Below the pieces are notes generated by a model. The model had not been told where the DNA came from and searched no databases. It saw nothing but the letters and a program-made list of their open reading frames with translations. From Bizionia saleffrena (GTDB taxonomy: Bacteria; Bacteroidota; Bacteroidia; Flavobacteriales; Flavobacteriaceae), in assembly GCF_008086175.1 (NCBI RefSeq), contig NZ_VSKM01000001.1, positions 186,001 to 250,000 of the forward strand: a stretch of 64,000 nucleotides of DNA, written 5' to 3'. A program made the translations under genes and the position numbers. This document shows positions 6,588 through 60,489 of this stretch, piece by piece. Position 1 is the stretch's first letter. Every line of letters begins with the position of its first letter.

Positions 6588-7553
6588 ATGCCTAAAAAAA
6601 TATGTATTATCAGTTTTGATCATTGGGATTACGATAAACACATCGCTATTGCGCTTAAAAAAAAGGGTATAGATAGTTACCATATTAAAATTGGAAATTA
6701 CAAACACGCCTCGGTCTTTGATAAAATTACAAACGCACTTAGTAAAGTGTTTTTGAATAAAAATTTAAAAAAACTAAGACGACAGGATTTTATAGTGCAC
6801 GAATTAGACCGTTTAGGTTTTCAAGATCAGATACTAGTTATTAATCCAGAAGTAATTGATTTAGAACACCATTTACAAATAAAGAAACGCACGAATAAAT
6901 ATATTGCGTATTTATACGACAGTATGGAAAGGAATCCCATTACACACTTACTAGACGGTATTTTCGACTCTATTTATTCTTTTGATGCCAACGACGTTGC
7001 CCAATATAATTTTCTGCCTATTACTAATTACAATTATCTTACGGAAGTTATAGATACAGCCAATGAAGTTTACGATGCCGTTTATGTAGGCTCCTTAGAT
7101 GATAGAGTGCCAAGGTTGATTGATGTGGCAGCACGGTTTAAAAAAATGGACGTCACTTTTAAGTGTCTGATTTTAGGCAAAAACAGAAAACTCGTGGCAC
7201 TTAAAACAAAAGGGGCTCAATATATTGAATTTAAAGATGACTATATTTCGCAGGAACACTTGATAGAAGAATATAAAAAAGCAAAAGTTATTGTTGATTT
7301 TGTCCGCGAAAACCAAACAGGATTAAGTTTCCGTTTTTTTGAAGCTTTAGCCTTAAAAAAGAAAGTGATTACCAATAATAAAAATGTGCTTAATTATTCG
7401 TTTTACAACCCTAACAATATTTTTGTAATGGACGAAAGTAATACACTCCCAAGTAAAGATTTTTTCGCCAAAAATTACGAAGAACTAAAGCAGCAAACCT
7501 ATAATAAATACACTATCGAGAAGTGGATTGAGAAGGTTTTCAACTTAAAATAA
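6588..7553 (+). CDS. Putative glycosyltransferase, GT-B (CgeB-like)
   Basis: This 321-residue protein starts KKICIISFDHWDYDKHIAIAL. Its C-terminal half is typical of GT4/CgeB-like GT-B enzymes: YDAVYVGSLDDRVPRLIDV starts the second Rossmann domain, and ENQTGLSFRFFEALALKKKVITN corresponds to the donor-binding E-x7-E region. No exact family could be fixed by eye. It probably transfers a sugar in the same surface-glycan pathway. It is a single plus-strand gene between two minus-strand groups, with its own promoter at 6533-6564 and five bases between its stop and that of the next, convergent gene. Confidence 0.65.
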   Translation: MPKKICIISFDHWDYDKHIAIALKKKGIDSYHIKIGNYKHASVFDKITNALSKVFLNKNLKKLRRQDFIVHELDRLGFQDQILVINPEVIDLEHHLQIKKRTNKYIAYLYDSMERNPITHLLDGIFDSIYSFDANDVAQYNFLPITNYNYLTEVIDTANEVYDAVYVGSLDDRVPRLIDVAARFKKMDVTFKCLILGKNRKLVALKTKGAQYIEFKDDYISQEHLIEEYKKAKVIVDFVRENQTGLSFRFFEALALKKKVITNNKNVLNYSFYNPNNIFVMDESNTLPSKDFFAKNYEELKQQTYNKYTIEKWIEKVFNLK

Positions 7554-7558
7554 ATCGC

Positions 7559-8773
7559 TTATTTTATTAAACTCAACACAGTATCTTCAGTGCTTTTTAA
7601 AGAAAAAGGTTCCAGGATATGTTCAGAAAAAGCACTTAAAGTCTCCCAACTTTCTTTATTAGTGTACACTTCAATTATTTTTGCAGCAATTTCTTCTTTG
7701 GTATTGGCAACCATTGTATTATGGTGTTTGCCAAAATTAAATCCTTCGGCTCCAATATCTGTAGTGATTAGCGGTAAACTGTATTCTAAGCTCTGCCCTA
7801 TTTTACCTTTTATTCCGGCTCCATAGCGCAACGGCGCTATAAATAGTCTCGAATTATAAAAATAATCTTCAACCTTGTCTACAAAACCAATAATATTGAA
7901 TTGATCTGAATGCAATGCTTTAATATCTTCGGTAGCATAACTCCCAATAATATCCACTTTTAATTCAGGAAGCGTTTTCCAAACAATCGGCATAATTTTA
8001 TCGTGTAAAAACACAATAGCATCTTGGTTTGGTGTGTGTCTAAAATTACCTATAAATAACAAATTACACCTTTTTTCGAAGGGCTTAAAGTTAGCCGTTT
8101 TTGGTAAATATTGATGAATATTACTCAACACTTTTATTTGCTCTGGTTTGTTATAATGTTTTAAAAGTAAGCTTTTATCGGTATCTGAAATAGCAATAGT
8201 AACATCTGCTTTTTTACTATTACTAGTTTCTAGATTTAAATATTTCTGAGCCTCAATTTTATTATCTTCATTATTATTTAGCTCGTATTCACGCTGTAAT
8301 CTAACATAATGAAAATCGACCATATCGTAAATTAACTTCACTTTCGGGTTTGCGTTTCTAACAATGCTTTGGTATTTCTCAAAAATATGCGGTCTGTGTA
8401 ACCACGCATAATTTAATTTTGGAGCAATTAATTTTATAAAACCTTCAATCGTTAACACCTCATCCTTAAAAATAGCGGGTTGGTATACGTTAACGCCCAT
8501 TTTTTTATAAACTCCAAAATAATCACTTTTATAACGATGCTGCCTGTAATCTGCCAATAAGAAAACACCTATATTATTTTTTAATAAAATTGAAATAATT
8601 TCCTTAAGTCTTCTAGAGCCCGAATCTTTATTAAATTCTGGTATAATTTCATCTATAATTAAAACATTCTTTTTTGAAAAAACCAGCGACTCCTCGTTAA
8701 AAAAAACACCCTCTTTTAAGAGTTTATTTTTTAATTTCACAAGTCTGATTTGTTTTTTAATATTTTTATACAT
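7559..8773 (-). CDS. Glycosyltransferase family 4 (group 1)
   Basis: This is a GT-B enzyme of 404 residues. The N-terminal domain has VLIIDEIIPEFNKDSGSRRL, with the DSGS(L/R)R motif typical of family members often fused to GT2 domains. The C-terminal domain has LLFIGNFRHTPNQDAIVFL and FIAPLRYGAGIKGKIGQSLEY; this is the GxGxKxK…E donor-phosphate and nucleotide-sugar site, and the family retains the Glu. It is about the usual length. It is convergent with the CgeB-like gene and lies downstream of the GT2 gene at 8834-10015 on the same strand (60-base gap). It probably extends LPS/O-antigen or capsule repeat units. Confidence 0.88.
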   Translation of the reverse strand: MYKNIKKQIRLVKLKNKLLKEGVFFNEESLVFSKKNVLIIDEIIPEFNKDSGSRRLKEIISILLKNNIGVFLLADYRQHRYKSDYFGVYKKMGVNVYQPAIFKDEVLTIEGFIKLIAPKLNYAWLHRPHIFEKYQSIVRNANPKVKLIYDMVDFHYVRLQREYELNNNEDNKIEAQKYLNLETSNSKKADVTIAISDTDKSLLLKHYNKPEQIKVLSNIHQYLPKTANFKPFEKRCNLLFIGNFRHTPNQDAIVFLHDKIMPIVWKTLPELKVDIIGSYATEDIKALHSDQFNIIGFVDKVEDYFYNSRLFIAPLRYGAGIKGKIGQSLEYSLPLITTDIGAEGFNFGKHHNTMVANTKEEIAAKIIEVYTNKESWETLSAFSEHILEPFSLKSTEDTVLSLIK

Positions 8774-59172: not shown

Positions 59173-59291
59173 ATTAAAGAATATTAGTATAATTTAGTTA
59201 AATATTAAAGCAAATATAGTGTTTTGCTTTAATATAAAAAGTATTTTCCGCTTACTTGTGCCTATTTTTGAGTAAAATTGATATACGAATT

Positions 59292-59687
59292 ATGTCTACT
59301 ATAATGCCTACTTACCTTTCTGAATTGCCTGTTTACAAAAAGGCATTAGAAATTTTTGTCTTATCAAGAAGTATTTCGTCGTATTTAAATCAAGATTTAT
59401 CGTACTTAAAAGCAGATGGGTCTGAAGACGAGCACATTTATTTTAGCGGTGATATTGTACAGCAGTCGGTATCTTTGGCTCCCGAAATTATTAATGTAGA
59501 ATTAGAATTGTGTGCCTTAAAAAAGCAAAAACACATTGCCTCTTTAGAGCGCATTACAAATGCATTGTATAGAAATTGTAAGCGTTTAGAAACATCTAAA
59601 AGTAATGGAAAGGACTATTTACCAATTTTAAGAAAAGAACTACGAAAGTTTAAAGCTATAAAGAACCACTGGATGTTAACGCTTTAA
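59292..59687 (+). CDS. Four-helix-bundle-type protein
   Basis: This 131-residue helical protein has LPVYKKALEIFVLSRSISSYL at the start, resembling the first helix of four-helix-bundle (23S rRNA intervening-sequence-like) proteins. It lacks their usual length and second-half motifs. The ATG at 59292 is preferred over an upstream TTG. Its stop overlaps the sigZ stop by four bases (convergent). Role unknown. Confidence 0.65.
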   Translation: MSTIMPTYLSELPVYKKALEIFVLSRSISSYLNQDLSYLKADGSEDEHIYFSGDIVQQSVSLAPEIINVELELCALKKQKHIASLERITNALYRNCKRLETSKSNGKDYLPILRKELRKFKAIKNHWMLTL

Positions 59688-60229
59688 TGCGCACAGACCT
59701 TACAATCTGCTTTTTCTTGTAGTTCGCCTACTAGGTACCCTTCATCATTAAGTTTAAACCCGCAGCAATCCATAAACCCTTTAGCAATGAGTGTTCTTGC
59801 GCGCTGTATTTGCGACTTTACCGTTGGCAATGGCAATTGTAGCTGTGTTGCTATATCGGCTTGCTTCATCCCTTTTATATCTGCTAAGAATAACGGTGTT
59901 CGGTATTTTTTAGGCAGATTTTTTATAATGCCGCGTAAGCAGTCTTTTTCGGTATGCTCATTATCTTCATTATTTTCTGCTAGAAACTCATTATCCGCGA
60001 TATCGATTGTTAACTTGTTTTGTCTAAAATAATCGTAAACCGTATATCTGGCAATCGAGAACACCCACGATTTTAGCTTGCTTTCATCATTTAAACTCTC
60101 GCGTTTGGTGTGTACTTTTATAAAAGTGTCTTGGAGCAAATCATCGGTTACGGCTTCATCCTTCACTTTACTTTGTATAAAGTGTTTAATGGCTTCTGCA
60201 TATAATTTCCAAATGGCTTTTGTGGTCAT
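59684..60229 (-). CDS. sigZ: SigZ-type ECF RNA polymerase sigma factor
   Basis: This 181-residue sigma-70-family factor has a region 2 (VTDDLLQDTFIKVHTKRESL … WVFSIARYTVYDYFR) and region 4 (LPKKYRTPLFLADIKGMKQADIATQLQLPLPTVKSQIQRAR). After region 4 comes the SigZ-specific tail with DCCGFKLNDEGYLVGELQEKADCKVC, four cysteines arranged as CC…C-x-x-C that could bind metal or form disulphides. No anti-sigma gene is adjacent. A 33-residue Cys-rich ORF and a terminator-like hairpin lie directly upstream on the same strand. Confidence 0.92.
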   Translation of the reverse strand: MTTKAIWKLYAEAIKHFIQSKVKDEAVTDDLLQDTFIKVHTKRESLNDESKLKSWVFSIARYTVYDYFRQNKLTIDIADNEFLAENNEDNEHTEKDCLRGIIKNLPKKYRTPLFLADIKGMKQADIATQLQLPLPTVKSQIQRARTLIAKGFMDCCGFKLNDEGYLVGELQEKADCKVCAH

Positions 60230-60240
60230 AAATCAGGACT

Positions 60241-60285
60241 AAAAACAGCGTTTACTTTAGCATAAAGCTACTAAAATAAACGCTG
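60241..60285 (-). terminator. Terminator-like hairpin before sigZ
   Basis: On the minus strand CAGCGTTTATTTTAG pairs with CTAAAGTAAACGCTG (one mismatch, ten-base loop) and is followed by TTTTT. It lies between the Cys-rich ORF (stop at 60309) and sigZ, ending 11 bases before the sigZ ATG. It could be an attenuator or a terminator for the short upstream transcript. Confidence 0.65.
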
Positions 60286-60308: not shown

Positions 60309-60410
60309 TTAACAGTTGCAATTTGCACACGTACAATTCTCGCAAGTACAGTTCGCACAATTTCCTTCTTTACAATTGGTACAGTTACACGTACATTCGG
60401 TAGTTTTCAT
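60309..60410 (-). CDS. 33-residue Cys-rich peptide (metallothionein-like or leader peptide)
   Basis: This tiny ORF encodes 33 residues starting MKTTEC. Cysteines are at positions 6, 8, 10, 13, 18, 21, 23, 26, 28, 31 and 33: 11 of 33 residues, mostly in NC and TC pairs. The only interruption is KEG at 14-16. Synonymous codons vary freely (TGT/TGC, AAC/AAT, ACC/ACT/ACG), which suggests selection on the peptide rather than a simple DNA repeat. It is the first short gene upstream of sigZ (79 bases) and follows the AGCS symporter stop by 79 bases. It resembles small metallothioneins in composition only. It may bind thiophilic metals, or be a Cys-codon leader peptide. Confidence 0.6.
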   Translation of the reverse strand: MKTTECTCNCTNCKEGNCANCTCENCTCANCNC

Positions 60411-60489
60411 GGGTATAAAATTTTAAGTTCATATAATAGACGTTGATATCTTTAAAAAGATGCCTTTTTATAGCATTATTTTTTCAGCA

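Follow-up and report, generated by a model that had tools for sequence, protein, structure and literature searches.

Within the window, by which we mean the whole stretch of DNA analysed (64,000 nt), a small peptide gene is located 79 bp upstream of a sigma factor gene on the same strand, and a sodium:alanine symporter gene lies upstream of the peptide gene. The features of the locus, in the order of transcription, are the following:

60437-60463, minus strand: conserved ECF-type promoter, consisting of GCATCTTTTT (60454-60463), N11 and CGTCTA (60437-60442), 53 nt upstream of the ATG of the peptide gene
60309-60410, minus strand: gene of a 33-aa Cys-rich, metallothionein-like peptide
60239-60285, minus strand: terminator-like element between peptide gene and sigZ, a stable hairpin (60246-60285) with the T-tract TTTTTAG (60239-60245)
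59684-60229, minus strand: gene of a SigZ-like ECF sigma factor comprising sigma2, a linker, sigma4 with Cys97 at its start, and the C-terminal residues Cys155-Cys156...Cys176-x2-Cys179
59939-59941, minus strand: codon of Cys97, which lies between sigma2 and the sigma4 core and never varies among the peptide-linked SigZ-like factors
59693-59767, minus strand: segment encoding the C-terminal Cys extension (residues 155-179), whose Cys residues show little or no variation in either of the peptide-linked clades

On the plus strand, 59256-59687 encodes a hypothetical protein that matches no Pfam family. Next to the peptide locus of genome G084 (locus L074) and, judged by eye, of G113 (L264), a similar protein is encoded, which indicates a conserved chromosomal site.

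The peptide gene and its conservation

Translation of the peptide ORF from ATG to TAA yields MKTTECTCNCTNCKEGNCANCTCENCTCANCNC, 33 aa with 11 Cys, exactly as given in the preliminary description. The Cys residues follow the pattern CxCxCx2Cx4Cx2CxCx2CxCx2CxC and are encoded by a mixture of TGT and TGC; Asn and Thr codons vary as well, so that the synonymous variation reported there was found again. In the 64-kb window, no other ATG ORF of at least 20 aa reaches 20% Cys, and an ORF of at least 25 aa with at least 28% Cys was absent from all 150 first-order Markov randomisations.

In a first search for relatives, the peptide was found in only five genomes, the window's own among them, and these were the five best sigZ matches. 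All five peptides comprise 33 aa with identical 11 Cys; for genome G004, an alternative ATG further upstream would lengthen the peptide by 4 residues. A survey of 397 Flavobacteriaceae genomes revealed a wide occurrence. The group of SigZ factors termed type A comprises 52 genomes with matches at E 3.1e-42 or better, the next match being at 1e-34. Reading of all 52 loci located the peptide gene directly upstream of type-A sigZ on the same strand in 51 genomes (gap 3-249 bp). The sigZ of the remaining genome, G212 (L253), is interrupted by two stop codons, and its peptide gene is frameshifted. In G113 (L264), sigZ is gone from the locus, the peptide lacks three Cys and the promoter has decayed. 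A named collection provided 23 further loci with an identical layout, among them Gelidibacter, Tenacibaculum, Polaribacter, Winogradskyella, Lutibacter, Leptobacterium, Oceanihabitans and MAGs; three of them come from genomes also present in the survey, leaving 71 distinct loci from 74.

The 11-Cys spacing is identical in all 74 peptides upstream of sigZ. Since the named-collection peptides were retrieved by their Cys pattern, independent evidence for this spacing comes only from the 51 survey genomes. Position-by-position comparison of the peptide columns in Python revealed only TGT or TGC at each Cys position in the 71 distinct loci, and the residues between the Cys (T, N, E, G) are conserved, too. 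The median pairwise NG86 dN/dS of these loci is 0.09, bearing out the selection on the peptide presumed earlier, and the observations named beforehand as speaking against it, i.e. lacking conservation upstream of sigZ and frameshifts or stop codons in homologues, were not made in the 51 intact of 52 genomes. The dN/dS value and the synonymous Cys codons across homologues, together with the uniqueness in the window and the randomisations, exclude a chance ORF. The 33-residue ORF is a real, strongly conserved gene, which marine flavobacteria retain in one operon with the sigma factor gene.

The peptide shows the features of the metallothionein class (<10 kDa, Cys in CxC/CxxC, few or no aromatic residues), with 33 aa, 33% Cys and no aromatic residue. 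No metallothionein model in Pfam or NCBIfam matched it even at E 10, so it does not belong to PF02069, and neither library contains any family matching it. Searches of the PDB and of plasmid records returned no match to the peptide, and in Rfam no score came near the threshold.

The SigZ-like factor, its relatives and the promoter

The product of the downstream gene contains sigma2 and sigma4 only (PF04542 and PF08281, both above cut-off) and is thereby an ECF sigma factor. Its best-scoring family over nearly the full length is the Bacillus subtilis-type SigZ, yet the scores remain under both curated cut-offs (TIGR02959, 159 vs 168.65 bits; PRK09637, 173.7 vs 212 bits), so that SigZ-like is the safer name. 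Thus, of the earlier characterisation as a SigZ ending in a Cys cluster, the CC...CxxC end holds, and the SigZ identity is to be read as SigZ-like. The C-terminus after sigma4 reads CC-x19-C-x2-C. An AlphaFold2 model (mean pLDDT 90, pTM 0.51) predicts two helical domains with a low-confidence linker between them; Cys155-Cys156 lies at the end of the last long helix, and a small hairpin separates it from Cys176 and Cys179. In the PDB, the factor matches ECF cores only, with alignments reaching residue 154 at most, and the Cys extension is therefore additional to the solved ECF structures. No anti-sigma gene adjoins the SigZ-like gene. From the comparative data we conclude that the peptide and the SigZ-like factor probably form an autoregulated, anti-sigma-free metal-response module, in which a metallothionein-like buffer is placed under a metal-responsive sigma factor.

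A second SigZ-like clade (type B; L007, L279-L286, L288, L292, L294-L301, L305, L306, L323, L328) shares about 27-37% identity with the factor of the window. At 22 Flavobacteriaceae loci its genes are preceded by that of a different peptide, about 37 aa long and containing about 14 Cys, e.g. MNNCKCTNCDCTKCNCGNCLESNCPCSKCDCDKCDCC, and two loci from other families of the phylum also carry a 14-Cys peptide. Both peptide-linked clades have Cys between sigma2 and sigma4 at position 97 and the C-terminal CC...CxxC in common: the linker Cys, the C-terminal CC and the following C are invariant, and the last Cys is present in 99% and 92%, respectively. Among the unlinked relatives, the linker Cys is found in only 47% and the last Cys in <40%. 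In the sigma tree the clades are separated with mixed support only and type A is not cleanly monophyletic; therefore, we make no claim on the branching order.

Several SigZ-like genes without a peptide gene are located beside metal(loid)-resistance genes (L287, L290, L309, L291, L308). Three precede an arsenite methyltransferase gene (arsM; matches above the curated cut-off), and others precede genes of ArsI/CadI metalloenzymes (one match above, one just below the cut-off). In plasmid records, where the best SigZ relatives are about 30% identical, inspection of the neighbourhoods yielded one informative case, an Arenibacter plasmid on which the SigZ-like gene precedes genes of an ArsE-like thioredoxin and an efflux permease (matches below cut-off). 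The arsenic and cadmium genes point to a role of the wider SigZ-like group in metal(loid) stress. The thioredoxin-like protein and permease of Arenibacter would also suit a module sensing thiol or redox stress, such as disulfide stress or reactive electrophiles, rather than metals, with the peptide as thiol buffer or scavenger, and sensors built from Cys only are able to respond to oxidation. We consider this unlikely, as repeated CxC/CxxC motifs without aromatic or hydrophobic residues are typical of metal-thiolate clusters and the remaining neighbours of the unlinked relatives are the arsenic and cadmium resistance genes.

Alignment of the regions upstream of the peptide gene revealed the motif GCATCTTTTT-N11-CGTCT(A) with an invariant 11-nt spacer at all type-A sigZ loci examined. 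A strict regular expression matches it in 66 of the 71 distinct loci, the other five differing by one or two changes. A CGT-type -10 box is typical of ECF factors, unlike the TAnnTTTG box of the flavobacterial primary sigma factor (PMC9723704). The exact form occurs at 39 sites in the 397 genomes, 33 of them at the peptide gene and six within long antisense open frames of other genes; outside coding sequence it is found only before the peptide gene. A reversed-pattern control gave two sites in the same genomes. Within the genome that contains the window, the next-best site already has three mismatches. As all other exact sites are intracoding and the own genome holds a single site, we reject a wider SigZ regulon; the regulon is probably very small, perhaps limited to the own operon.

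Most type-B loci have the promoter GTATCYTTTT-N11-RGTCT, related to but distinct from that of type A. Of all the evidence in this analysis, this switch of promoter type between the sigma clades speaks most strongly for each factor reading its own operon. About 20 further loci have kept the peptide while having neither the ECF promoter nor a sigma gene in their flanks, many of them in small MAGs so that the absence of sigZ holds for the flanks and not for whole genomes. Instead, many of these loci show a TAnnTTT(A/G) box, a type of box common in AT-rich DNA. No consistent neighbour was seen by eye in the peptide-only loci read; in G084 (L074), where sigZ is missing, the peptide is flanked by two of the same downstream neighbours.

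The co-conservation of promoter and factor suggests that the SigZ-like factor reads the GCATCTTTTT-N11-CGTCT promoter. As the link is of this kind and flavobacteria hold several ECF factors with CGT-type -10 boxes (PMC9723704), the promoter of a metallothionein-like peptide could also be read by another ECF factor, with co-transcription as the only link to sigZ. However, the two SigZ clades come with different promoter types, loci that lack sigZ also lack the promoter, and in G113 and G212, whose sigZ is absent or decayed, peptide and promoter are decayed as well, all of which renders control by another factor very improbable.

The hairpin and the leader-peptide alternative

The hairpin between peptide gene and sigZ has a median folding z of -5.2 over 68 loci, compared with 0.08 for a control stretch of sigZ coding sequence; its sequence varies between loci while the structure persists. 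A simple terminator finder gave weak results (46 of 71 loci vs 21 in shuffles), hence the folding z-scores were used. At least five T within the next 9 nt follow the hairpin in only about half of the loci, which makes termination at this site uncertain.

Polycysteine leader peptides of mycobacteria act as Cys attenuators, and Canestrari et al. reportedly described in 2020 such Cys-codon attenuators of operons. The locus studied here resembles these leaders in having a short Cys-rich ORF upstream of a regulated gene and a hairpin downstream of the ORF, and the Cys-rich leader peptide had been the second suggestion of the preliminary description. Scarcity of charged tRNA-Cys under oxidative or metal stress would then slow ribosomes at the Cys codons of the ORF and relieve the hairpin terminator, so that sigZ is transcribed and the peptide product is irrelevant. 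The stable hairpin in nearly all loci fits such an attenuator. Neither of the hallmarks looked for was found, though, i.e. a peptide occurring only upstream of the regulated gene and an antiterminator/terminator at fixed distance. The peptide is kept at the sigZ-less loci described above, the residues between the Cys are conserved at the sigZ-linked loci, and the distance from the stop codon of the peptide gene to the hairpin is not conserved (0 to 72 nt, quartiles 7-23.5). Also, the hairpin is retained in the minimum-energy fold in 98% of loci when the ORF is included, so that no competing antiterminator is visible. The peptide-only loci and the unfixed geometry disfavour attenuation, which we regard as highly unlikely, and the peptide itself is most likely functional.

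The proposed module compared with known systems

In the metal-response module favoured here, the SigZ-like factor would carry its own sensor, formed by the linker Cys and the C-terminal CC...CxxC. A thiol-binding metal (Cu, Zn, Cd or a metalloid) would occupy these cysteines and thereby activate the factor, which in its metal-loaded form would direct RNA polymerase to the promoter upstream of the peptide gene. The peptide, produced in quantity, may then capture the metal in vivo as an 11-thiolate cluster and thus switch the loop off. The hairpin after the peptide gene would curb read-through into sigZ, and such partial termination could yield the peptide in excess over the sigma factor. On comparative grounds the case for the module is strong. 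The earlier proposal, in which SigZ cooperates with a metallothionein-like buffer or sensor, is well supported by the Cys spacing, the purifying selection, the operon linkage, the ECF-type promoter covarying with the clade, the co-decay in two genomes and the metal(loid)-resistance genes beside related factors.

Bacterial metallothioneins (SmtA/BmtA, Pseudomonas MTs, PF02069) are likewise very small, Cys-rich, of cytosolic type and likely to form a metal-thiolate cluster. They often use His and hydrophobic residues (PMC10612145), whereas the peptide described here has 11 Cys within 33 aa, no His or aromatic residue and no profile match. The regulation known for them runs through other means than a neighbouring sigma factor, e.g. 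through the ArsR/SmtB-family repressor AzuR (PMC8790569). Animal and fungal metallothionein domains, i.e. the 11-Cys alpha domain and the small CxC copper thioneins, share Cys as the only ligands and CxC/CxxC repeats with the peptide, and the alpha cluster Zn4Cys11 likewise has 11 Cys (PMC10243857). Homology to solved structures is not detectable, however, and the resemblance is one of composition and spacing only.

For the sigma factor, a precedent of an on-board metal-sensing Cys domain is given by CorE and CorE2 of Myxococcus xanthus (ECF44/ECF238), which are metal-dependent and have a C-terminal Cys domain, Cys between sigma2 and sigma4 and no anti-sigma gene (PMC8999054). The SigZ-like factor shares the C-terminal Cys-rich extension, but this is shorter; its linker contains a single invariant Cys97 (type A) or CC (type B) in place of the CXC motif, and it is paired with a metallothionein-like peptide. 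By analogy, the pair may work like a metallothionein and a CorE-type sigma factor combined, but the peptide matches no metallothionein profile, and the sigma factor lacks the CXC linker and scores below the SigZ cut-offs.

Since two clades share the layout although their peptides differ, the pairing of a sensor sigma factor with a thiol buffer appears to be favoured by selection. Tentatively, these loci might represent a hitherto undescribed class of modules: a sigma factor equipped with its own Cys metal sensor would control essentially no operon but its own, the main product of which would be a metallothionein, and such modules would occur in two clades or more, each with a peptide of its own and a promoter type to match; direct metal exchange between peptide and sigma factor may make the peptide the off-switch. 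A literature search yielded no paper joining SigZ and metallothionein, which is not proof of novelty as subscription papers are poorly covered. If the proposal is true, a widespread metallothionein-like family of Bacteroidota has been missed by standard profile libraries, SigZ-like factors of unknown function obtain a testable regulon, possibly of one operon, and the locus represents a minimal metal-homeostasis circuit consisting of a sensor sigma factor, one promoter and one buffer peptide.

Further Cys-rich ORFs were seen at other loci. L313 contains a 59-aa ORF with CC clusters upstream of another SigZ-like gene, and L307 a 45-aa ORF downstream of another one. In L146, a Cytophagales MAG without sigZ in the available DNA, a related 11-Cys peptide ORF (about 7430-7570, reverse strand) adjoins an apparent superoxide dismutase gene.
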